This document shows, one piece after another, positions 1 through 8,050 of a stretch of 8,050 nt of DNA. The number at the start of each line of letters is the position of its first letter. The first letter of the stretch is position 1. Under the pieces are notes generated by a model that saw only the letters and a list, made by a program, of their open reading frames with translations, was not told the origin of the DNA and did not search any database. The stretch spans positions 1 to 8,050 of the forward strand of contig DAOUUT010000169.1 of NCBI GenBank assembly GCA_030668025.1. Direction: 5' to 3'. Source of the stretch: Promethearchaeota archaeon (GTDB lineage Archaea > Asgardarchaeota > Lokiarchaeia > Sigynarchaeales > SOKP01). Both the position numbers and the translations under genes were made by a program.

Positions 1-411
1 AATTACGACAAAATTGGCGAACGTACGATTAGAATTGATTGCGACGTCATACAAGCCGATGGCGGTACAAGATGCGCCTCGATCACAGGAGCTTTTGTTG
101 CCGTTTTTGACGCCCTCAATTACTTATATAACGAAAAAAGAATATACGAATTTCCTGATTACAAGGTCACTGCAGGTATATCGCTTGGACTAAAGAACAG
201 CAAGGTTCTTTTAGACCTAAATTACGAAGAAGACTCTACAGTAGACGTCGATTTTAACTTAGTAGCGAACGAAGATTTAGAATTGATCGAAATTCAAGGA
301 ACTGCGGAAGGATTACCGTTTAACAAGGAGAAATTAAACGAAATAATCGAAGTCGGAGAAAAGGGTATAATGGAATTAATTAAAATTCAAAAAAATGTAT
401 TGAACTTATAA
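1..411 (+). CDS. rph: Ribonuclease PH, C-terminal part (5' end outside window)
   Basis: RNase PH is a phosphate-dependent 3'-5' exoribonuclease that trims tRNA 3' ends, working as a hexameric ring in the cytoplasm. The visible 136 codons are open from base 1 to a TAA at 409-411. They carry the family core GERTIRIDCDV followed by IQADGGTR, whose Gly-Thr-Arg binds phosphate, then SITGA. Further on come LLDLNYEEDS, the segment holding the conserved acidic residues, and IQGTAEG near the C-terminus. The usual protein is about 240-255 residues, so roughly the N-terminal 100-110 are missing to the left. The common GGTRTAS is GGTRCAS here, a minor change. The start of this segment is richer in G+C than the genes to the right (40-53% in the first two 60-base lines by hand count). 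No usual neighbour such as rdgB follows: the gene ends convergently against the dehydratase gene, so it probably closes a housekeeping operon. The bacterial form argues against an archaeal source. Confidence 0.95.
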   Translation, partial: NYDKIGERTIRIDCDVIQADGGTRCASITGAFVAVFDALNYLYNEKRIYEFPDYKVTAGISLGLKNSKVLLDLNYEEDSTVDVDFNLVANEDLELIEIQGTAEGLPFNKEKLNEIIEVGEKGIMELIKIQKNVLNL

Positions 412-516
412 TTTTATCTTATTTTTTCTATTTAATTAAAAATTATAATTTCTAAAAACTGTTATAGAAAGATGTAAAACCTTCAAAATATGAATTTATA
501 AAAAATTAAATAATAA

Positions 517-1668
517 TTAATGAGCTTCGATTCCAAGCATTTCTGGATGAGATTGGAAGTATTCTACTCCTTCTTTTATAATTTCTACAATTGATCTTAC
601 CGGTTTCCAGCCTGTTTCGTTAAATATCTTATCGTTCCGACCAATTAACAAGGGTACTTCGCTAGGGCGCATACGTTGAGGGTCTATAAACACATCAGCT
701 TCTATATTGTAGATTTTCTTCGCTAATTTAACATAATCAGCAACGGTTATTCCTTTTCCTGAACACACATTAAATGGTTCTCCATATTTCATTTTCTCAC
801 TAAGTATAATGTAAGCATTAACGGTATCTTTAACGTGTGTAAAATCTCTAATAGCGTTGGGGTTTCCAATAACAAATTTATCTCTTTTATTTTCTAAAAG
901 TTCTACAATTTGTCTATGGACTACACTAGTAACAAATTGAATCCCTCTCCTAGGTCCTTCGTGATTAAAGCCACGCGAAATAATACTCGGTACTCCATAT
1001 GAATTGTGATATAACCATGCGACTTGTTCAGTGGCACATTTTGATATCCCATAAACACTTCTCGGGCGGAAGGGATTTTTCTTTAAATCTTCTGTTACTG
1101 GTACTTCTCTAGGATCTACTAACCCATATTGTTCGCTACTACAAGCAACTTGCAAACTATCTAGTCCGGTTTTGAATCTACGTGCTGCTTCAAACACATT
1201 AATGGTGCCTATTAAGTTATTATGAATAACTCTAACGGGTTCTCGAAATGAAGTTGGAACAAATGACTCAGCAGCGAGATGAAATACTGCGTTAGGTTGT
1301 ATTTCTTCAAAGATAGATAAAATTCTTTCAGCGCTCGTAATATCCGCTTCGTGAAGAGATATATTACCCCTTAAATGTTCGATATTTTCATACATAGGTA
1401 CAGCGTGTCTTCTTATCGTACCATGAACTTCACACCCTAAATCTAATAGTTGTTCTGCCAAATGACTTCCTGCAAAGCCACTAATACCCGTTATTAAGGC
1501 TACTTTTTCGCTCCAATATTCTTTATTAGGTAATGTTGTAGTACGCCCTTTAAAGCCTTCTAAATAACCGTCAATTTTTTCCGGCTTTATTATATATCCC
1601 TGTTTTTCAAGTTCTTCAACTCGGGGATTTTCTTTAATAACTTTTTCCAACGGTATTAAATCAATCAT
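517..1668 (-). CDS. gmd: GDP-mannose 4,6-dehydratase-like SDR enzyme with N-terminal extension
   Basis: This extended-SDR sugar-nucleotide dehydratase probably converts GDP-mannose to GDP-4-keto-6-deoxymannose, the precursor of GDP-rhamnose, GDP-fucose or perosamine, in the cytoplasm. The NAD(P)-binding motif TGISGFAG is at residues 60-67. The catalytic set expected for GMD is present: Ser177 (Thr in E. coli), Glu179 in the SSEQYG motif, and Tyr206 and Lys210 in YGISK. GMD hallmarks follow: FNHEGPRRG at 234-242, RDFTHVKD at 274-281, RPSEV near 335, and GWKP near 353. The protein has 383 residues against about 370 usually, although about 55 residues precede the Rossmann fold, where the family normally starts almost directly with it. 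The ATG at 1668 is the only good start: no in-frame ATG lies nearer the fold and no Shine-Dalgarno sequence is visible. The gene is transcribed divergently from the glycosyltransferase gene. A related 4-epimerase or other GDP-hexose dehydratase is possible, but the HEGPRRG motif favours GMD. Confidence 0.82.
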   Translation of the reverse strand: MIDLIPLEKVIKENPRVEELEKQGYIIKPEKIDGYLEGFKGRTTTLPNKEYWSEKVALITGISGFAGSHLAEQLLDLGCEVHGTIRRHAVPMYENIEHLRGNISLHEADITSAERILSIFEEIQPNAVFHLAAESFVPTSFREPVRVIHNNLIGTINVFEAARRFKTGLDSLQVACSSEQYGLVDPREVPVTEDLKKNPFRPRSVYGISKCATEQVAWLYHNSYGVPSIISRGFNHEGPRRGIQFVTSVVHRQIVELLENKRDKFVIGNPNAIRDFTHVKDTVNAYIILSEKMKYGEPFNVCSGKGITVADYVKLAKKIYNIEADVFIDPQRMRPSEVPLLIGRNDKIFNETGWKPVRSIVEIIKEGVEYFQSHPEMLGIEAH

Positions 1669-1930
1669 GATATTAATTAGAATTAATTAACTATTGGATT
1701 TTAAGTTAATTATTAAAATTCTAGACTGATCTTAATAACAAGTTAAACTCAGAATAACTGAAATTTAAAATTGATTGAGTTTATGTTTATATTATTTTTA
1801 TAAATCTATAATGTAAGGGATTGAGTTTATGTTATAAAAATATTTAACAATTTCCAATTACTCTATACCTTAATTAAATACTAAATTCAAATTAAAATTT
1901 TAAACCATAGTACCCAACTTGAAGTAAAAA
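1669..1930. promoter_or_regulatory. Divergent intergenic region, probable promoters for both flanking genes
   Basis: This 262-base AT-rich gap separates two divergent starts, so promoters in both directions should lie here. A TATAAT hexamer at 1807-1812 on the + strand is a possible -10 box for the glycosyltransferase gene, but the hexamer 17 bases upstream (TGTTTA) is a poor -35, so the promoter is only tentative. Neither flanking ATG has a clear Shine-Dalgarno sequence. The repeats in this gap are listed separately. Confidence 0.45.
1773..1833. repeat. Exact 15-bp direct repeat, possible operator pair
   Basis: GATTGAGTTTATGTT occurs at 1773-1787 and again at 1819-1833, 46 bases start to start. 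The 8-base core TGAGTTTA (1776-1783 and 1822-1829) also occurs inverted as TAAACTCA at 1744-1751. Three copies in a short divergent gap, bracketing the possible -10 box at 1807-1812, suggest binding sites for a regulator. A regulatory role is inference; the repeats themselves are exact. Confidence 0.55.
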
Positions 1931-3121
1931 ATGATCAAAATTCTATTGGTAACTGTTCCTTATGAGAAAACTTCAGCAGGGGGTGCTGCCAAGAGCTTTT
2001 TAAATATTTTCAAAGGTTTAAAAGAAAACAAAGAGTTCCAACTTAAAATCTTGGCGCTTAACCCAAATAAGTTAATCAAAAAATTCTTAAATCCTTTAGG
2101 CCTAAGTTATTTTGTTTTTATACCAAAAATATTAAAAAGAATAAATAAATTTAAACCAAATATTATAATAACGCAAAGCAGAATTACCTTTCCAGCTATT
2201 ATTTCTGCTAATATTAAAAAAATACCCATAATTAGTATTGTACGCGATACTTCTGATGTGTGTCCTAAACATATTGATATAATTGGATATGGAAAAGCAT
2301 GTCCTGGATTAAAAAACAAAAAAACATGTAATAATTGTATTAATTATTGGAGATCGCTAAGGGTATTAATTGGAAATAAAGGCCAAGGATGGCAATATTC
2401 CTTGAGCTCAAATATTTCTACGAAAATTTATAAATTTCGATATTTCGTTTGCCAAATTAATTTATTTCTATTAAATAAAGCAACGGTAAATTTAGTCGCT
2501 TCAGAATTAATGAAGAAGATTTTATCAAACAATTTAGACTCAAAAAAAATCAAAGTAGCAAATATTACACCAATAAAAAACTATTCGCCTCTAGAATCCT
2601 CAGAAAAGAAAAATCAGTTATTAATTGTAATCCCAAAATTCAACGCTTCACATAAAGGATTAGATTTTGTTTTAAAATTATCCCAATTCGTTCCAAAAGA
2701 TTATAAAATTGTTGTTGTAGGAAGCAAGATACCTACTGCTAAATTAGAGAAGGTTGATAACAAAATTATTAACTATGATCAAATTAGTAAAAGAGAATTA
2801 AACAAATTATATCAAAGTTCTCAATTAACGTTAGTTCCAACATTTTGCACTGAAGCATTTGGAAGAATTATTATAGAAAGTTTTGTAAGTAAAACTCCCG
2901 TGATTTCTTCCCCCAATTGTGGTGCAAATTCTTTTTTCATCGAAAAAGATTTTCTTAAGGTAGTTCCCTTAAAATTATCTTTATGGATAGAAGCGATAAA
3001 CGAAATGATAAAACTATCTCATAAAATTACTGATAATGACATTAAAGAGATTTATGATCAATTTTCCATCGAAAAAAGTAAAGACGAGTTTTCGAACTTA
3101 ATTAAACAAATTATATTTTAA
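1931..3121 (+). CDS. Glycosyltransferase family 4 (GT-B fold) with four-cysteine insert
   Basis: This is a retaining GT-B glycosyltransferase, probably adding a sugar from a nucleotide-sugar donor to a surface glycan at the cytoplasmic face. The N-terminal strand (residues 2-9) leads into a Gly-rich loop, SAGGAAKS at 15-22, typical of GT4 acceptor domains. In the donor domain, SHKGLD at 240-245 matches the usual KG motif. PTFCTEAFGRIIIE at 303-316 contains the GT4 EX7E pair, Glu308 and Glu316. A segment at 111-136 carries Cys111, Cys124, Cys133 and Cys136, a pattern seen in a subset of GT4 enzymes and possibly metal binding. The length of 396 residues is normal. The ATG has only a weak GAAG upstream. 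The phosphotransferase gene follows after 35 bases, so the two form an operon. Sampled G+C is about 20-32%, lower than in the dehydratase and MIPS genes. Donor and acceptor cannot be told from sequence. Confidence 0.85.
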   Translation: MIKILLVTVPYEKTSAGGAAKSFLNIFKGLKENKEFQLKILALNPNKLIKKFLNPLGLSYFVFIPKILKRINKFKPNIIITQSRITFPAIISANIKKIPIISIVRDTSDVCPKHIDIIGYGKACPGLKNKKTCNNCINYWRSLRVLIGNKGQGWQYSLSSNISTKIYKFRYFVCQINLFLLNKATVNLVASELMKKILSNNLDSKKIKVANITPIKNYSPLESSEKKNQLLIVIPKFNASHKGLDFVLKLSQFVPKDYKIVVVGSKIPTAKLEKVDNKIINYDQISKRELNKLYQSSQLTLVPTFCTEAFGRIIIESFVSKTPVISSPNCGANSFFIEKDFLKVVPLKLSLWIEAINEMIKLSHKITDNDIKEIYDQFSIEKSKDEFSNLIKQIIF

Positions 3122-3140
3122 CTATTTTAAAGAAATGAAT

Positions 3141-3147
3141 AAGGAGG
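3141..3147 (+). promoter_or_regulatory. Strong Shine-Dalgarno site of the TagF-like gene
   Basis: AAGGAGG lies 9 bases before the ATG at 3157 and fixes that start. It falls in the 35-base gap after the glycosyltransferase stop. It shows that this organism uses canonical Shine-Dalgarno initiation, which argues against Bacteroidetes. Confidence 0.85.
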
Positions 3148-3156
3148 ATTGAAGAA

Positions 3157-4383
3157 ATGAATATTTTTAATAAAATTCTTAATAAGTTCACATTTTTAAA
3201 ATCAACGAAATTATATCAATTTACGCAAGAAATTGGATATTCATTTGTTATTAAAACAATTTCAAGGTTATTTAGTAATAAAGTCGAAGCAAACTTGATT
3301 TTATTGAGTGCATATGGAGGAAAGGCATTTGTAGACAATACAAAATATATATTTCAATATTTAGTTAAAAATACTGAATATAAAGTAATTTGGATTACAA
3401 ATTCTCGTGATTTATTAGGGGAATTTAAAGCTAAAGGATATCAGGCAGTTTATAAATTTGAGCTAAATACGATTAAGCTATTAAGAAAGGCGAAATTTAT
3501 TTTCACTACTCATGGAGTATTTGATGTATTACCTATTGATTTCTCTCCTAATACTATCTTTGTTTGTACTTGGCATGGTGTGCAAAATAAAAGAAATAGC
3601 TCAGTCCATGGCCCTATTAAGTATGGTAAACTAGCAAAATATCTTAAATTGAAGATTGTGAATGATAATTTTATGGATTTTTTTGTTACTCCTTCAGGCA
3701 CCAAAAAAGATAAAAAGCTTATTGTAAATTATTTTCAGATATCGCCTAAAAAAATAATTACAACCGGTTATCCCAGAAATGATATCTTATTTTCTATAGA
3801 TTTAGAACTAAAAAACCTAATTAGAAAAAAATACAAATTAGCTAAGAATTTTAAAAGAGTCTTATTATACGCACCAACCTTCCGTGATAGCTCCTTTACC
3901 GCTAAATTACCGTTTAAACAAGAGGAATTAATTGAGTTAAACAATGTTTTAAAGAGTTCTAATTCGATATTAATTATGAAAGCACATATGTTTGAACAAA
4001 TTATTGAATTTAAGAATTATTCGAATATCAAAAAAGCACCAAAAAATGCTGATATTCAAGAATTAATATGTATAACAGATATTTTAATTACAGATTATTC
4101 TTCAGTTTATTGCGATTTTCTATTATTAAACAAACCAATCTTATTATTTACATACGACTTTGAGGAATTTATGAAAAAGGGGCGTGGATTTTATTATGAC
4201 TTTAAACAAATTGCTCCTGGACCATTATTATTCACGGGAAAAGAATTGATTGAAGCTATAAAAAATGTTCATAATATAGAAAAAGACTTTGAAGAGAGAA
4301 GGTTAAAAACAAGGAGATTATATCACAAAAATATCGATGGAAATTCTACTGAACGATTATTAAAATTTTTAAAAATCGTTTAA
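3157..4383 (+). CDS. TagB/TagF-family CDP-alcohol (glycerol-type) phosphotransferase
   Basis: This is a peripheral-membrane GT-B enzyme of the CDP-glycerol glycerophosphotransferase family (Glyphos_transf). These enzymes move an alcohol-phosphate from a CDP-alcohol onto teichoic-acid-type polymers or glycans. Family motifs are all present: TWHG at 138-141 with the conserved His140, GYPRND at 204-209, YAPTFRD at 238-244, KAH at 275-277 with the second conserved His277, ITDYSS at 311-316, and the C-terminal FYYDF at 346-350. The length of 408 residues is close to TagB or a single TagF catalytic domain; the long N-terminal region of full TagF polymerases is absent. The N-terminus is basic and amphipathic, without a signal peptide or membrane span, which suits a cytoplasmic-face enzyme. 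The gene has a strong ribosome binding site and is co-directional with the GT4 gene. The window holds no CDP-glycerol or CDP-ribitol synthase, while an IPCT homologue lies convergently 11 bases away. CDP-inositol is therefore a plausible donor by inference. Confidence 0.9.
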   Translation: MNIFNKILNKFTFLKSTKLYQFTQEIGYSFVIKTISRLFSNKVEANLILLSAYGGKAFVDNTKYIFQYLVKNTEYKVIWITNSRDLLGEFKAKGYQAVYKFELNTIKLLRKAKFIFTTHGVFDVLPIDFSPNTIFVCTWHGVQNKRNSSVHGPIKYGKLAKYLKLKIVNDNFMDFFVTPSGTKKDKKLIVNYFQISPKKIITTGYPRNDILFSIDLELKNLIRKKYKLAKNFKRVLLYAPTFRDSSFTAKLPFKQEELIELNNVLKSSNSILIMKAHMFEQIIEFKNYSNIKKAPKNADIQELICITDILITDYSSVYCDFLLLNKPILLFTYDFEEFMKKGRGFYYDFKQIAPGPLLFTGKELIEAIKNVHNIEKDFEERRLKTRRLYHKNIDGNSTERLLKFLKIV

Positions 4384-4394
4384 TAGTAAGAATA

Positions 4395-5186
4395 TTAAAA
4401 GATATCCAAATTAAAAGGTTTGAATTGGTTTGATTCGTCAAAATTTCTCTTTAACTTTTCATATTCAAAGTCATTATCTACATCAACCCAAATTGTATTA
4501 GGAAAATCAAAATAAGAAACTTTTAAATTTTCTTTAATAGCAGAAATAACTATATCTGAAACTCCAAACTTTTCACGACTTTTTTCAATACTTCGTGAAG
4601 TTTTTTGAACTATATCAGTTTTCATAATAAAAACACCCATATCAAGCCTATTGTAATTACTGATTTGCTTTCCTATCTTCTTTATGTAGAAATCTTCTCC
4701 ATAAACTTTAGTACAATCCTGTAAATCGTAAATTCCTTTAATGCTCATAGGATCTGTAGCTAAGACTATGTCATCTTTGTTATAATTGGTTAAAAGTTCA
4801 GCGTAGATGTTTTTTGAAAAAATATGATCTGCCATGGATAACACAAAACTATTAGATGATACTGCTTTTGCACCTAAATATAGACTATATCCATTTTCTC
4901 TTTCAGAATACTTATTTTCAATTAAATTTATTTTTAAATCCTCAAAATCTAAATTGATTTCTTTGCCAAAATCATAACAACAACTAACGACTTGTGATTT
5001 GTCAACCGTGTCATCAACAACAATATTTATTTTCCTAATCCCCGCAAAATACATCCCGGTAATTACGTAATTTAATATGATTGTTTTCTTGAGCGGTAAG
5101 AGAAACTTTTTGAATGAACTATCTCCAAAATTGAATCGAGAAGAAAATCCCGCTGCTAAAATAACGCTTTCCACACTATGCACCAT
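4395..5186 (-). CDS. CTP:inositol-1-phosphate cytidylyltransferase (IPCT)-like nucleotidyltransferase
   Basis: This enzyme likely couples inositol-1-phosphate to CTP, giving CDP-inositol and pyrophosphate. It has the nucleotidyltransferase fold: LAAGFSSRF at 10-18 is the signature loop, with Lys26/Lys27 as the usual downstream lysine. ENGYSL at 97-102 and SMADH at 117-121 closely resemble the GNGYSL and TMGDH of Archaeoglobus IPCT as I recall it. LDMGVF at 181-186 matches that enzyme's VDTGFF, and WVDVD at 233-237 its WMDVD metal site. The 263 residues form a single domain; the CDP-alcohol transferase domain fused to IPCT in some thermophiles is absent. It lies downstream of two MIPS genes on the same strand, which supports the inositol substrate. 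The start is uncertain: no Shine-Dalgarno sequence precedes the ATG at 5186, and a GTG at codon 5 is an alternative. Several sampled lines have only 18-27% G+C, well below MIPS. Another sugar-phosphate or choline-phosphate cytidylyltransferase is the main alternative. Confidence 0.82.
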   Translation of the reverse strand: MVHSVESVILAAGFSSRFNFGDSSFKKFLLPLKKTIILNYVITGMYFAGIRKINIVVDDTVDKSQVVSCCYDFGKEINLDFEDLKINLIENKYSERENGYSLYLGAKAVSSNSFVLSMADHIFSKNIYAELLTNYNKDDIVLATDPMSIKGIYDLQDCTKVYGEDFYIKKIGKQISNYNRLDMGVFIMKTDIVQKTSRSIEKSREKFGVSDIVISAIKENLKVSYFDFPNTIWVDVDNDFEYEKLKRNFDESNQFKPFNLDIF

Positions 5187-5230
5187 TATAAAAAATAATC
5201 TATTGATTAAATAATCTAAGAAAAATAATT

Positions 5231-5269
5231 TTTAAAATAAAATAAAACAAATTAAAGCGATTAGCGCTC
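5231..5269 (-). terminator. Possible weak terminator between the MIPS and IPCT genes
   Basis: Read on the minus strand, GAGCG (5269-5265) pairs with CGCTT (5259-5255) around the loop CTAAT. The stem has five pairs, one of them G-U, and overlaps the MIPS stop codon. A T-rich tract (5254-5231) follows. The stem is short, so it could act as partial attenuation lowering IPCT expression, or be chance. Confidence 0.35.
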
Positions 5270-6436
5270 GCGTTTGCCTTCGATAAATTCTGAAACCCAT
5301 TGTTTAGCAACTATATCTGAAGGTGGTTGAATATGTGGATGCTTAAAACTAAAAGAACTAACACTTTCTAAAATTCCCGAAATCCCTCTATCTAAGGCAA
5401 GTTTCATAGCGCGGATTATGTCTAACACAACTCCTGCCGAATTAGGAGAATCCTCAACCCTGATTTTTAAATCTAAGACTAACGGTAAATTTCCATACGT
5501 CGTACCATTAATTCTAATATAACAAATTTTTTTATCTTCAAGAAAAGGAACAAAATCACTTGGACCAATTCTGCAGTTAATTGGATATGGAAGGACGGAA
5601 GTAACTGCAGAAGTTTTTGATTTTCGCTTAGTAGCTAAACGATTTTCCAATTTCATGTTATAAAAATCGCCATTACCTCCGATATTTAACTGATACATTT
5701 CATTTACAACTACGCCCCGATCTAAAAACATCTTAGCCAAAACCCGATGTGCAATTGTAGCACCAACTTGAGATTTAATATCATCACCAGCACAGGGTAA
5801 CCCATTAGCTTCGAATTCAGCAACCCAATCTTTATCGCCCTCAATTTGTTCAGACACGATGAATTCAGGAATCCCATTTATAAATCCACAACCTGCATCA
5901 AGTGCTGCTTGAGCATATATTCTAGAAGCGTTATGACTTCCAACGGGTAAAAAATTAATTAGAATTTCAGCCCTATTTTCTTTAAGCGTTTGTGCAATAT
6001 CAACTGGTATTATTTTTTTCTCATCATATACTTTAAAATAATCAAATGTTGATATTCGTCCATCTTTACTTACATAACATCCATCTGAAATTGGTCCGGG
6101 GTAACACAAAGCTCCTGTCTTTGGCATTTTCTCTGGATTTACAATCTTATGACAGCAATTAGGCTCCGCATAAATTGCCTCTGAAACATCTTTATTGATT
6201 TTTGTTGTTGATACATCAAAAGCAGCAACTATTTTAATATGCCGTGGAAGATATCCACCAATACTGGGGTTCATCAACCCATTAACATACATATCTTCTT
6301 CCTTGATGTTTTTGTAAAATTCAATACCTTGAATTAAAGCAGATGCACAATTACCAAGCCCAGCTAAGGCGATCCGAATTTCTTTTTTATCAGAAACATC
6401 GTTAAATTCTGGATTAATCTTTGAATTATTTTCCAT
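5261..6436 (-). CDS. ino1: Myo-inositol-1-phosphate synthase, canonical copy
   Basis: MIPS makes 1L-myo-inositol-1-phosphate (also numbered 1D-myo-inositol-3-phosphate) from glucose-6-phosphate by an NAD-dependent internal redox and aldol cyclisation in the cytoplasm. The protein resembles the mycobacterial/archaeal short form: 391 residues against 367 in M. tuberculosis Ino1, partly through a charged N-terminal extension of about 20. NAD-binding GLGNCASALIQG is at 26-37, GDDIKSQVGAT at 217-227, LNIGGNGD at 250-257 and EDSPNSAG at 328-335. Lysines matching yeast catalytic Lys369, 373, 412 and 489 appear at 270, 274, 303 and 365, so the enzyme should be active. Cys94, Cys95, Cys111 and Cys120 lie in a variable region. 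The ATG at 6436 is set by a strong AAAGGAGG 10 bases upstream. That site overlaps the end of the preceding MIPS gene, with only 5 bases between the genes, so translation is probably coupled. Confidence 0.95.
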   Translation of the reverse strand: MENNSKINPEFNDVSDKKEIRIALAGLGNCASALIQGIEFYKNIKEEDMYVNGLMNPSIGGYLPRHIKIVAAFDVSTTKINKDVSEAIYAEPNCCHKIVNPEKMPKTGALCYPGPISDGCYVSKDGRISTFDYFKVYDEKKIIPVDIAQTLKENRAEILINFLPVGSHNASRIYAQAALDAGCGFINGIPEFIVSEQIEGDKDWVAEFEANGLPCAGDDIKSQVGATIAHRVLAKMFLDRGVVVNEMYQLNIGGNGDFYNMKLENRLATKRKSKTSAVTSVLPYPINCRIGPSDFVPFLEDKKICYIRINGTTYGNLPLVLDLKIRVEDSPNSAGVVLDIIRAMKLALDRGISGILESVSSFSFKHPHIQPPSDIVAKQWVSEFIEGKRER

Positions 6437-6441
6437 GGATT

Positions 6442-7506
6442 TTATGCCTCCTTTCTTATACCTAATATAAAATTAGCTAAATTCTTACTGGCTTCAGCCG
6501 GAGTTTTCGGAGATTTCGGTGGGTTTTTAAACCCGTAAGCAGAAATTTCATCAATAGACCCAGCAGCACTTTGATTTATTGCTATTTTAGTCACCCGAAT
6601 CACATCCGCTAGTATAGAGCCCCCATTAGGACCATCTTCAGTTTGAATCTTAATATCCATAATAATTTCTGATCCCATAAAGCCTTTACCAACAATCCAG
6701 AGCATTGTATTCCTTCTATTACCGAGAAATTCAACCCAATCAGAAGTGCCTGCAACAATTGGAGCGTCAATATTTAGGGTTCTCGCTACAGACATGCTTT
6801 TAATTTTTCGTTTTGTTTCTCGCGTTCGGTAAATCGTGTTTAAACTTTCAGCTCCACCACCTACATCCAAAGCATAGCTTTCTTTTATATCTATTCCTAG
6901 ATCAAGCATTTGTTGAAGTATCATTTTATGTAAAATTGTTGCACCAAATTGGTCTTGTAAATCATCTCCAATTAAAGGTAAGCCTGCATCATGGAATTTA
7001 TTAGCATATTCTTTATCAGTTGCGATTTTTGTAGGCGTTGCATTAATGAAAGCACAACCAGCTTTAATAGCTTCGTTTGCGTAAAATCTAACGGCGTTAT
7101 CAGCCCCAGAAGGTAATAAACATAATAATATCTCTACACCAGTCGATTTAAAATATTTGGCAACATTTATTGGGGTTTGATTTGCCGGTTTAACGCTTTT
7201 TTCCGTTTCACTGATGACACCATCGAGAATATCCCCCATAACGACCAAAACATTAGAATTTTTATGACCATCAACCACTACATCCAATTCGTTTGCTTTG
7301 ATTGCTTCCGAAACGTTCTTCCCTACTTTATCTTCAGATATATCCACCGCTGCTACGACTTGAATATCAGAAATATTGTAACCCGCAAGATTAGGTCGAA
7401 GTAATCCTCTTTTATTAGAATCTCGATAATATTCTATACCTTGGACTAAAGCGCTTGCGCAATTTCCAATTCCGATAATTCCAATCTTAATTTTGCCCAT
7501 AACCAT
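6442..7506 (-). CDS. Divergent myo-inositol-1-phosphate synthase paralogue
   Basis: This second MIPS-family protein (354 residues) is clearly homologous to its neighbour from end to end: IGIGNCASALVQG at 10-22, AAVDIS near 52-57, LPSGAD at 131-136, GDDLQDQFGAT at 180-190, TEDGPNGG at 289-296 and YGFKNPP at 324-330. Three catalytic lysine positions are kept (Lys232, Lys236, Lys327). Others are changed. The equivalent of yeast Lys412 is Arg265. The GDDIK lysine is Gln184. The LNxGGNxD segment reads LDVGGGAE, losing the Asn (Gly218) and turning Asp into Glu220. It may have altered activity, make another inositol phosphate isomer, or be a partner subunit of the canonical copy, since MIPS is normally a tetramer. 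It is the first gene of the minus-strand operon. The start is ATG 7506 or the in-frame ATG at 7500, two codons on. Neither has a clear Shine-Dalgarno sequence; a TATAAT at 7534-7529 could be a -10 box. Confidence 0.88.
   Translation of the reverse strand: MVMGKIKIGIIGIGNCASALVQGIEYYRDSNKRGLLRPNLAGYNISDIQVVAAVDISEDKVGKNVSEAIKANELDVVVDGHKNSNVLVVMGDILDGVISETEKSVKPANQTPINVAKYFKSTGVEILLCLLPSGADNAVRFYANEAIKAGCAFINATPTKIATDKEYANKFHDAGLPLIGDDLQDQFGATILHKMILQQMLDLGIDIKESYALDVGGGAESLNTIYRTRETKRKIKSMSVARTLNIDAPIVAGTSDWVEFLGNRRNTMLWIVGKGFMGSEIIMDIKIQTEDGPNGGSILADVIRVTKIAINQSAAGSIDEISAYGFKNPPKSPKTPAEASKNLANFILGIRKEA
6447..6454 (-). promoter_or_regulatory. Shine-Dalgarno site inside the upstream MIPS coding end
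   Basis: AAAGGAGG on the minus strand sits 10 bases before the ATG at 6436. It is built from the last codons (Lys-Glu-Ala) of the upstream MIPS gene. It decides the start of the canonical MIPS and points to coupled, balanced synthesis of the two paralogues. Confidence 0.85.
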
Positions 7507-7954
7507 CTACTCTAGAAATTTGATACTAATTATAAAATAAATAAATTATTAAAAAGTATTATGATATATATTTATTTCAATATAGCTCGAACATTTATTA
7601 GAAGTTAGTGAAATAATCAAAATTTTGTATTCACTATTCTTATATAGAAGATATTCTAAAAATATCACGCAGTCATCTGAAAATACCTTTTTTATCCCGA
7701 CTTCATTTTTTCAATCATATTCTATTTATATAATAATCAATTAAATAAATCCATTTATCTATTACCATTCTAACAAAAAATTAATATAAAAAGGGAGAAT
7801 AGGCTTACCAGCCTTGATGATATTTTAAAAAAATAATTGGAAATGGATTCTAACACCAAATTTTAATAGATAAGCAGAATATAATATTTCGAGTTACAAT
7901 TATGTTATCTTTATAATTAAATCATAATAAAACTTCCACAAATTTTAATTTAGA
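7507..7954. other. Gene-free AT-rich region with short inverted repeats
   Basis: No coding region is supported in these 448 bases; both strands are full of stops. It separates divergent genes, so promoters for the MIPS operon (minus) and the right-edge gene (plus) should lie here. None has both a good -35 and a good -10. Seen by eye: TAGTGAA at 7606-7612 inverted to TTCACTA at 7630-7636; GATATT at 7650-7655 inverted to AATATC at 7661-7666; a GC-rich hairpin AGGCT/AGCCT with loop TACC at 7801-7814; and a 10-base inverted pair TTATCTATTA at 7755-7764 with TAATAGATAA at 7864-7873. In sequence this AT-rich, some of these are expected by chance. Confidence 0.6.
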
Positions 7955-8050
7955 ATGGCATCAATAAAAAATTTAAGAATTAATATAAAGCAAATTAATG
8001 CTTTAGTGGAAAGAAATATATATCTTGAAGCAAGATTTAAATTACAAATT
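7955..8050 (+). CDS. N-terminus of a possible ABC-2 type exporter permease (cut by window edge)
   Basis: An ATG at 7955 opens a frame of 32 codons that runs to the window edge; a stop lies just upstream at 7946-7948, so this is the only start. The end of the visible peptide, ALVERNIYLEARFKLQI (residues 16-32), resembles the cytoplasmic N-terminal segment of ABC-2 permeases of the drug/polysaccharide exporter class, just before the first membrane span. No membrane segment is visible yet and no strong Shine-Dalgarno sequence precedes the ATG. An open frame this short can occur by chance in AT-rich DNA, so the call rests on the peptide pattern. If correct, it would add an export function beside the glycan genes. 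Confidence 0.45.
   Translation, partial: MASIKNLRINIKQINALVERNIYLEARFKLQI

Follow-up and report, generated by a model that had tools for sequence, protein, structure and literature searches.

The gene set described here probably represents a CDP-inositol-dependent surface-polymer cassette of an Asgard archaeon, in which a TagF-like enzyme would move inositol phosphate, not glycerol phosphate, to a glycan. It lies on a stretch of 8,050 nucleotides of Asgard, Lokiarchaeia-type DNA, called the window below. As genes that probably serve CDP-inositol formation stand end to end with a TagF relative whose donor motif is altered, an inositol-phosphate surface glycan is predicted. The window contains the following features:

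1–411, plus strand: rph (RNase PH), 3' part (TIGR01966, 165 bits).
517–1668, minus strand: NDP-sugar 4,6-dehydratase/epimerase, 383 aa, likely sugar-nucleotide supply (PF16363, 266 bits).
1931–3121, plus strand: GT4-type glycosyltransferase, candidate acceptor maker (PF00534, 40 bits; identical gene order in locus L001).
3157–4383, plus strand: CDP-alcohol phosphotransferase of TagF-like GT-B type, 408 aa, proposed to transfer inositol phosphate (PF04464, 231 bits).
3571–3591, plus strand: codons W139-H-G-V-Q-N-K145, the catalytic His and altered donor-site residues (alignment to TagF).
4384–4394, no strand: gap of 11 bases between the convergent stop codons of the TagF-like and IPCT-like genes.
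4395–5186, minus strand: IPCT-like, putative CTP:inositol-1-phosphate cytidylyltransferase, kind A, 263 aa (PDB, NCBIfam, AF2 model, tree).
5261–6436, minus strand: MIPS1, Mtb Ino1-type inositol-1-phosphate synthase, GGNGD motif, 391 aa (1gr0 match, TIGR03450).
6442–7506, minus strand: MIPS2, tandem MIPS paralogue with the altered motif LDVGGGAE, 354 aa (1gr0 match, TIGR03450).
7955–8050, plus strand: ABC-2 exporter permease gene, 5' end only, as the window stops inside it (32 aa resembling the beginning of the permease in L001, PF01061).

The GT4 and TagF-like genes, which share a strand and are separated by 35 bases, converge on the genes for the IPCT-like protein, MIPS1 and MIPS2, with rph, the NDP-sugar dehydratase gene (top NCBIfam model gmd, under its cut-off) and the permease start as neighbours. 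The open reading frames thus bear out the preliminary description, which had placed two MIPS genes and an IPCT homologue on one strand, 11 bases from a TagF-family gene. Locus L001 is collinear with positions 1–7549 at 94.7% DNA identity, so that the locus is not a one-off. The window rph marks the edge of an rph-PDT-pheT-pheS housekeeping block flanking the glycan island, and rph and PDT homologues also adjoin the TagF-like genes of L001, L046, L049, L051, L052, L057, L100 and L102. The absence of DIPPS, also claimed earlier, holds as well: a Pfam scan of seven window ORFs gave no CDP-alcohol phosphatidyltransferase, and none of the six PF01066 (DIPPS-type) matches in genome G001 is on contig C81, the contig of L001. 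Synthesis of di-myo-inositol phosphate at the locus was rejected on this ground.

For the IPCT-like protein, which scores 43.8 with NTP_transf_3 (cut-off 27), the only PDB sequence matches at E ≤ 0.001 are 4jd0, 2xme and 4mnd, all of them IPCTs. Its top NCBIfam match is NF041135 with 102 bits (cut-off 580), a bifunctional model, and a single-domain protein is therefore not expected to reach that cut-off. The active-site residues of the T. maritima IPCT are R16, K26 and D112 (PMC12275187, excerpt). D120 of the window protein aligns directly with the active-site Asp if a chain offset of five residues is assumed, while R17 and K27 are placed by motif position only; across the 29 rows of alignment A1, K27 is invariant and R17 nearly so. 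The AF2 model predicts a fold best matched by 4jd0, followed by RmlA, with RmlA and GalU scoring closely.

Both MIPS proteins match PF01658 (101 and 56 bits for MIPS1 and MIPS2, cut-off 27) and have Mtb Ino1 1gr0 as the closest solved structure by sequence (E 8.5e-91 and 2.7e-62); with TIGR03450 they reach 354 and 245 bits, under its cut-off of 638. The earlier assignment of two MIPS genes needs one correction: the 354-aa protein carries G-G-G-x-E in place of the G-G-N-x-D found in MIPS1 and 1gr0. This difference is general, with GGGxE in 15/15 distinct MIPS2 rows and GGNxD in 24 of the 26 distinct MIPS1/MIPSb rows. The idea that the tandem proves a dedicated inositol supply was rejected because the pair occurs also without IPCT in seven fetched stretches (L085–L091); MIPS2 alone, with no MIPS1 partner, is found in L092–L097. 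In the window, L001 and, with another orientation, L002, the MIPS genes adjoin the IPCT gene, and together they likely make CDP-inositol.

Two other functions of the nucleotidyltransferase were weighed. It might activate another phospho-alcohol such as choline or glycerate, with the TagF-like enzyme transferring that group. This would fit the identity of only 21–24% to solved IPCTs, the label 'choline kinase' that one source gives to some relatives, and family members with other substrates, for example CpgD with phosphoglycerate (PMC12275187, excerpt). We consider it quite improbable, as the same source annotates other relatives as CDP-L-myo-inositol myo-inositolphosphotransferase, the top PDB, NCBIfam and Foldseek matches are IPCTs, and MIPS stands beside IPCT in the window, L001, L002 and 14/19 of the kind-B loci described below. 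Alternatively, an NDP-cyclitol or NDP-sugar could be made for the GT4 glycosyltransferase, with TagF unrelated; the GT-A fold is common to RmlA and GalU with their close scores, and the GT4 gene adjoins TagF. The IPCT residues, the MIPS linkage, a linkage across contigs that is to TagF and a sister kind that pairs with CDP-alcohol phosphotransferases make this explanation highly implausible.

The TagF-like protein matches PF04464 over residues 40–404 (231 bits, cut-off 22.1) and has TagF 3l7m/3l7i as the closest solved structures by sequence. Its AF2 model (pLDDT 88.6) predicts a GT-B fold with TagF 3l7j as top Foldseek match (TM 0.75). H140 and H277 align with the catalytic H444 and H584 of TagF and are invariant in 22/22 rows of the TagF-like alignment A2. 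Donor-site residues of the TagF family are named in PMC11666461. At this site the window enzyme reads WHGVQ, TagF and Cps3D read WHGTP and TarL (CDP-ribitol, H300N) reads W-N-A-V-G; V142 and Q143 stand where TagF has T446 and P447, and the window enzyme thus lacks the W-H-G-T-P of the CDP-glycerol-using TagF subgroup.

Lokiarchaeal IPCT-like enzymes form two kinds with different partners. Kind A, to which the window enzyme belongs, is the TagF-linked kind, whereas kind-B genes are partnered by a CDP-alcohol phosphotransferase and/or MIPS: one or both stand beside IPCT in 17/19 loci (L004–L022), MIPS in 14 of them, and the other two loci end near a contig edge. Isolate 33X4 carries both kinds, A in L001 and B in L009. 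An IPCT tree of 124 rows (without rows under 200 aa and 38/51 of rows P0070–P0120) places 12/13 TagF-linked rows inside the 72-row kind-A group and none in the 32-row kind-B clade, linkage being labelled by adjacency or contig, with L003 and P0060 as one contig and L061–L063 counted apart. The 13th linked row, P0068, has an unresolved position next to kinds A and B. In the TagF tree (142 rows, limited to ORFs of at least 300 aa and P rows of at least 340 aa) the TagFs of 12/12 linked pairs fall into one 53-row clade with support 100, and over these pairs IPCT and TagF distances are correlated (r = 0.825, reached in 0/9999 permutations). Among IPCT rows P0001–P0069 whose contigs reach 3 kb or more, 10/40 match the exact contig size of a listed TagF row, compared with 1/28 for P0070–P0120 and a shifted-size background mean of 0.25; much of the linkage rests on such matches of contig size. 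One kind-B contig size (4176) also equals that of a TagF row, possibly by chance.

Among the genomes searched kind A was found in only three, with TagF adjacent in one, about 14 kb away in G002 and on another contig in G201, where it is a fragment reading WHGGF. A universal link within kind A was consequently rejected; the association does recur on other contigs, and the two phylogenies agree. Kind-B-only genomes, too, have TagF somewhat more often (6/17) than genomes without IPCT (8/63; p 0.065), which speaks against the proposed pairing. Alternatively, the genes might be neighbours without a shared pathway, CDP-inositol going to di-myo-inositol phosphate or an inositol lipid via a distant CDP-alcohol phosphotransferase and the TagF-like enzyme using CDP-glycerol or another donor. 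CDP-alcohol phosphotransferases (PF01066) are indeed encoded elsewhere in G001 (six), G002 (five) and G201 (three), the equivalent rph site in L046, L051, L052, L100 and L102 holds TagF relatives but no IPCT, and two same-clade TagFs of G002, about 21 and 27 kb from IPCT, flank a phosphonate cassette. We nevertheless regard such a separation as unlikely, because TagF linkage goes with kind A, kind B (L009) already serves the CDP-OH partner in isolate 33X4, T-P after W-H-G is absent from all 12 linked TagFs and TagD over cut-off is lacking in the genomes surveyed.

PF04464 matches occurred in 34/195 genomes, of which the 22 with matches of at least 100 bits were examined further. TagD (TIGR01518, glycerol-3-phosphate cytidylyltransferase) was over cut-off in 0/23 TagF-bearing genomes of Asgard relatives (best 47 of 165 bits) and in 2/14 control genomes, and a CDP-glycerol supply via TagD was rejected; the cytidylyltransferase named earlier as a possible refutation did thus not appear over cut-off in these genomes. 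In 24 stretches from the 22 genomes (L099–L103 omitted), 13/26 Asgard TagF-like genes adjoin a GT-A nucleotidyltransferase, with a random mean of 4.9 (0/5000), when the profile was built only from other loci; a profile partly seeded with TagF neighbours gave 14/26. In the deep loci L061, L062 and L063 TagF is again paired with a neighbour whose top NCBIfam match is IPCT-DIPPS. None of these TagFs has a motif in common with the window enzyme (HGIS, WHGRP and WHGQG, respectively), and the placement of deep rows, including these, is unsure because FastTree warned of long branches.

The donor-site motif follows the linkage. VQ occurs in 23/51 listed rows inside the TagF clade and 0/68 outside. The clade members include P0122 and P0240, which are identical to L001 and L048:2535, respectively, and row P0234 is absent from the tree. 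When only contigs of 3 kb or more are counted, 7/20 VQ/IQ TagFs are IPCT-linked and 0/50 with TP, TV or other residues (Fisher p 6e-5), and [AG]D replaces VQ in 3/10 TagFs of size-matched contig pairs. A clade-specific position set (80% conservation, both TagF clades) was rejected; it yielded only position 73 (T/S), and the variation of the residues that follow W-H-G inside the linked clade makes it uninformative.

Taken together, the two IPCT kinds, the distance correlation, the lack of TagD, the nucleotidyltransferase adjacency and V-Q tracking IPCT linkage back CDP-inositol as the likely donor; the use of CDP-inositol by the TagF-like enzyme, as first proposed, is supported by the tests run, none of which proves it. 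MIPS1, with or without MIPS2, would convert glucose-6-phosphate to inositol-1-phosphate, from which the IPCT-like enzyme would form CDP-inositol with CTP. The TagF-like GT-B enzyme would then transfer inositol phosphate, with release of CMP, to a glycan that the neighbouring glycosyltransferase has begun; H140 would serve as the base, and H277 would act at the pyrophosphate. The adjacent ABC-2 exporter would carry the product out. We infer the substrate of each enzyme, the acceptor and the product, be it polymer or cap. A wider idea, with chances somewhat below even, is a teichoic-acid-like chemistry of Asgard archaea in which TagF-type transferases work with interchangeable donor cassettes for inositol, phosphonates and glycerol- or ribitol-type alcohols. 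The residues after W-H-G would form a donor code (T-P for glycerol-type donors, V-Q-N for CDP-inositol, [AG]-D for phosphonate-flanked enzymes), and the window would hold the CDP-inositol version, serving inositol-phosphate glycans.

Asgard archaea are considered the archaea closest to eukaryotes; to our knowledge, their surface polymers are little known and few fates of CDP-inositol have been described. If our reading is true, the TagF family would have CDP-inositol as a novel donor and Asgard archaea would have a teichoic-like envelope chemistry. The donor-site motif is a candidate marker of donor specificity that can be checked by one assay, and it might also be possible to use these findings in the search for enzymes of phosphoinositol decorations elsewhere. 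Judged by titles and abstract openings, literature on Lokiarchaeota and inositol did not deal with CDP-inositol and that on Asgard archaea and CDP-glycerol held nothing related; searches joining inositol phosphate, teichoic acid and TagF, or Asgard archaea, phosphonate and pepM, found none.

Among known systems, TagF-like capsule polymerases and CgoT have the same Pfam family and catalytic histidines as the window TagF (PMC11666461, excerpt); the donors named there are CDP-glycerol and CDP-ribitol, and the main text does not contain the word 'inositol'. The IPCT/DIPPS pathway to di-myo-inositol phosphate (4jd0, 2xme, 4mnd) has the predicted step from MIPS and IPCT to CDP-inositol in common with the locus, where a TagF-like GT-B enzyme takes the place of a DIPPS-type gene. 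In a Bacteroidetes cluster proposed for a CDP-inositol lipid, MIPS and an NTP transferase are likewise proposed to make CDP-inositol, but there they stand with a CDP-alcohol phosphatidyltransferase, an arrangement more like Asgard kind B than the window locus (PMC9246714, excerpt). Wall teichoic acid systems with TagF, TarF or TarL (PF04464) share with the locus the GT-B fold, the two catalytic histidines, the DYSS motif and a glycosyltransferase and ABC-2 exporter nearby. In contrast to those with TagD, the locus is archaeal, reads WHGVQ instead of WHGTP, has relatives with no TagD over cut-off and carries IPCT and MIPS in place of a CDP-glycerol or CDP-ribitol module.

To take a closer look at the CDP-inositol pathway proposed for this locus, we read the window from left to right, where it carries the final part of rph, then a gene for an NDP-sugar dehydratase (-), a GT4 gene (+), the four genes listed here and an ABC-2 permease gene (+), of which only the first 32 codons are present.

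Genes of the proposed pathway
3157-4383, + strand, TagF-like transferase
4395-5186, - strand, IPCT-like protein
5261-6436, - strand, MIPS1
6442-7506, - strand, MIPS2

The gene set of the preliminary description, two MIPS genes and an IPCT homologue on one strand beside a TagF-like gene, was upheld, with 11 bases separating the stop codons of the convergent TagF-like and IPCT-like genes. The closest named relatives are Promethearchaeota/Lokiarchaeota MAGs, and positions 1-7549 are collinear with locus L001 of 'Candidatus Lokiarchaeota archaeon isolate 33X4' at 94.7% DNA identity. Past the window edge L001 encodes an exporter (ABC ATPase and permease), more glycosyltransferases and methyltransferases. 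At 7549-7824 the window has about 275 bases and L001 about 1.9 kb, with a CmcI-type methyltransferase and a short glycosyltransferase-like ORF. The rph-PDT-pheT-pheS block is a recurring border of Lokiarchaeia glycan islands with TagF-like genes (window 1-1668; L001, L046, L049, L051, L052, L057, L100, L102). At the rph site of L046, L051, L052, L100 and L102 TagF and the dehydratase are present and IPCT is absent; their six TagFs read WHGTP in four cases, FHGTP in L102 and WHGSA in the second of L046.

The TagF-like protein is a member of PF04464 (231 bits), and its AF2 model (pLDDT 88.6) matches TagF best, followed by TarL and capsule enzymes. In the alignment its H140 and H277 correspond to H444 and H584 of TagF, the two sites at which 3l7j and 3l7m depart from the parent sequence. 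All PDB sequence matches of the IPCT-like protein are IPCTs; its model (pLDDT 83.1) is closest to T. maritima IPCT, with RmlA-type structures close in score. MIPS1 matches Ino1-type synthases in sequence. The claim of two MIPS genes holds for their presence, but MIPS2 is, judged by its sequence, a paralogue with GGGxE replacing GGNxD: LDVGGGxE occurs in all 15 distinct MIPS2 rows and GGNxD in 24 of 26 distinct MIPS1/MIPSb rows. MIPS2-type proteins occur in 17 of 83 Lokiarchaeia genomes (E<=1e-110), the MIPS2-MIPS1 tandem without IPCT in seven stretches (L085-L091) and MIPS2 alone in six more (L092-L097). MIPS2 may be a regulatory partner or produce another cyclitol.

A scan of GTDB contigs for IPCT gave 22 loci of two kinds. 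Kind B (L004-L022) has a CDP-alcohol phosphatidyltransferase-domain protein (443-485 residues where whole) and/or MIPS alongside in 17 of 19 loci, MIPS (345-388 residues) being present in 14; the two loci with neither partner end close to contig edges. In the kind-B partner (L009:4718-6109; L004:10812-12161; L018:10817-12169) about 260 residues without Pfam match, by eye resembling a degenerate nucleotidyltransferase, precede the CDP-alcohol phosphotransferase domain. CDP-alcohol phosphotransferases usually have spaced aspartates after the DG..AR motif; this partner reads GHIEHSFDQ. Kind A, the kind of the window, is known in its gene context from L001-L003, most kind-A metagenomic rows (P0001-P0069) being known as proteins without surrounding DNA. 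In the stretches read of these three loci no CDP-alcohol gene of the kind-B type was found; the MIPS tandem is present in L001 and L002. A di-myo-inositol phosphate pathway at the window locus was considered and rejected, no DIPPS-type gene being found among the seven window ORFs scanned or on the L001 contig. Isolate 33X4 carries both kinds, which leaves one IPCT free for another partner. In a FastTree phylogeny of 124 rows, 12 of the 13 rows labelled TagF-linked fall into the 72-row kind-A group and none into the 32-row kind-B clade; the thirteenth, P0068, sits on an unresolved branch beside both.

IPCT was found in 20 of 83 Lokiarchaeia genomes (E<=1e-40) and a window-type TagF in 17 of them (E<=1e-30), 'them' being the 83; a search for IPCT in 227 genomes of the phylum returned the same 20 at E<=1e-60. 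TagF is present in 3/3 kind-A genomes versus 14/80 others (Fisher p 0.007), and in 6/17 kind-B-only genomes versus 8/63 without IPCT (p 0.065). The expected association in relatives stands for co-occurrence, with adjacency seen in L001 and not in the kind-A genomes G002 and G201. Within G002 the TagF closest to IPCT is a two-domain protein at a distance of about 14 kb; two further TagFs, about 21 and 27 kb from IPCT, border a phosphonate cassette and have the motif WHG[AG]D. The IPCT contig of G201 stops short of any TagF, and WHGGF is the motif of a TagF fragment on a separate contig. For most metagenomic rows linkage was scored indirectly, by exactly equal contig sizes of IPCT and TagF rows, and as 120 of 2322 TagF matches were listed the counts are lower bounds: on contigs >=3 kb, at least 10 of 40 for P0001-P0069 and at least 1 of 28 for P0070-P0120, against a mean of 0.25 with sizes shifted by 1-50. 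The TagFs of all 12 IPCT-TagF pairs belong to one clade (53 of 142 rows, support 100), which includes the two cassette-flanking TagFs of G002 and excludes its two-domain TagF. Pairwise IPCT and TagF distances of these 12 pairs correlate (r = 0.825; 0/9999 permutations as high), a value that common descent of the organisms could by itself yield. The 815-residue ORF at L047:15184-17631 has two TagF-like domains.

PF04464 matches occur in 34 of 195 genomes of the phylum. From 22 genomes with matches >=100 bits we surveyed 24 stretches with 26 TagF ORFs, using a GT-A nucleotidyltransferase profile seeded solely from non-TagF loci. Such an enzyme directly adjoins 13 of the 26 (random gene of the same stretches 4.9; 0/5000) and lies within two genes of 17 (7.3; 0/5000). 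The profile found none in L045, L046, L051, L052, L059 and L067, L059 and L067 being short contigs. The adjoining cassettes vary in type.

Cassettes adjoining TagF-like genes
IPCT: L001, L061; IPCT-like in L062, L063
PEP mutase-nucleotidyltransferase with decarboxylase, Fe-alcohol dehydrogenase or aminotransferase: L048:4232-9117; L049:3881-8565; L050:10379-15054; L053:566-2260; L056:1453-5055; L103:1-1533
Nucleotidyltransferase and glycerol-3-phosphate dehydrogenase: L060:65-3026
IspD-type enzyme: L065, L066 (Pfam scan on L066 only)
Nucleotidyltransferase-HAD fusion: L101:5060-6565

The PEP mutase fusions, several with one of the accompanying enzymes, represent phosphonate-type cassettes in Asgard archaea. 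In L060 the two enzymes and the TagF-like gene are consecutive, a CDP-glycerol-type cassette in an archaeon, and in L101 the HAD phosphatase fusion lies right behind a WHGTP TagF. The alternative that a CDP-glycerol cytidylyltransferase supplies the donor was checked as well: TagD was above cut-off in none of 23 TagF-bearing genomes, so the donors probably come from the cassette nucleotidyltransferases.

The residues after W-H-G may bear on the donor. In the docking described in PMC11666461, the T and P following the catalytic H-G are among the CDP-glycerol site residues common to CgoT and TagF. WHGTP is found in TagF and Cps3D, and the CDP-ribitol enzyme TarL (H300N) reads W-N-A-V-G. WHGVQNK is present in the window, L001 and 7 of 10 contig-linked TagFs, the other three reading WHG[AG]D. 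In the listed set of 120 TagF rows, 23 of the 51 members of the linked clade carry V-Q and 0 of the 68 non-members do, one row being unplaced; the motif is absent from the deep IPCT-adjacent TagFs of L061, L062 and L063. On contigs >=3 kb, IPCT linkage was seen for 7/20 VQ/IQ rows, 3/9 [AGQ]D rows and 0/50 others (VQ/IQ versus these 50 others, Fisher p 6e-5, optimistic as the rows are related), with P0122, the L001 row, counted among the 13 unlinked VQ/IQ rows although its link is directly visible.

Our reading is therefore that the window enzyme is likely to use CDP-inositol as its donor, a rating lowered slightly by the placement of P0068 between the kinds and by TagF being fairly frequent in kind-B genomes; the broader idea of Asgard TagF-type enzymes with interchangeable donor cassettes was marked down a little for the same reasons. 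Counting against the reading are the distant or separate TagFs of G002 and G201, the IPCT-free TagFs at the rph site, the MIPS tandems without IPCT and the deep IPCT-adjacent TagFs that lack V-Q. Unlike the CDP-glycerol TagF enzymes with their WHGTP, the window protein reads WHGVQ; it lacks the donor-site motif of that subgroup, and TagD was above cut-off in none of the 23 TagF-bearing genomes of relatives. It would work similarly to the glycerol- or ribitol-phosphate transferases of teichoic acid synthesis, but is predicted to do so with another alcohol.
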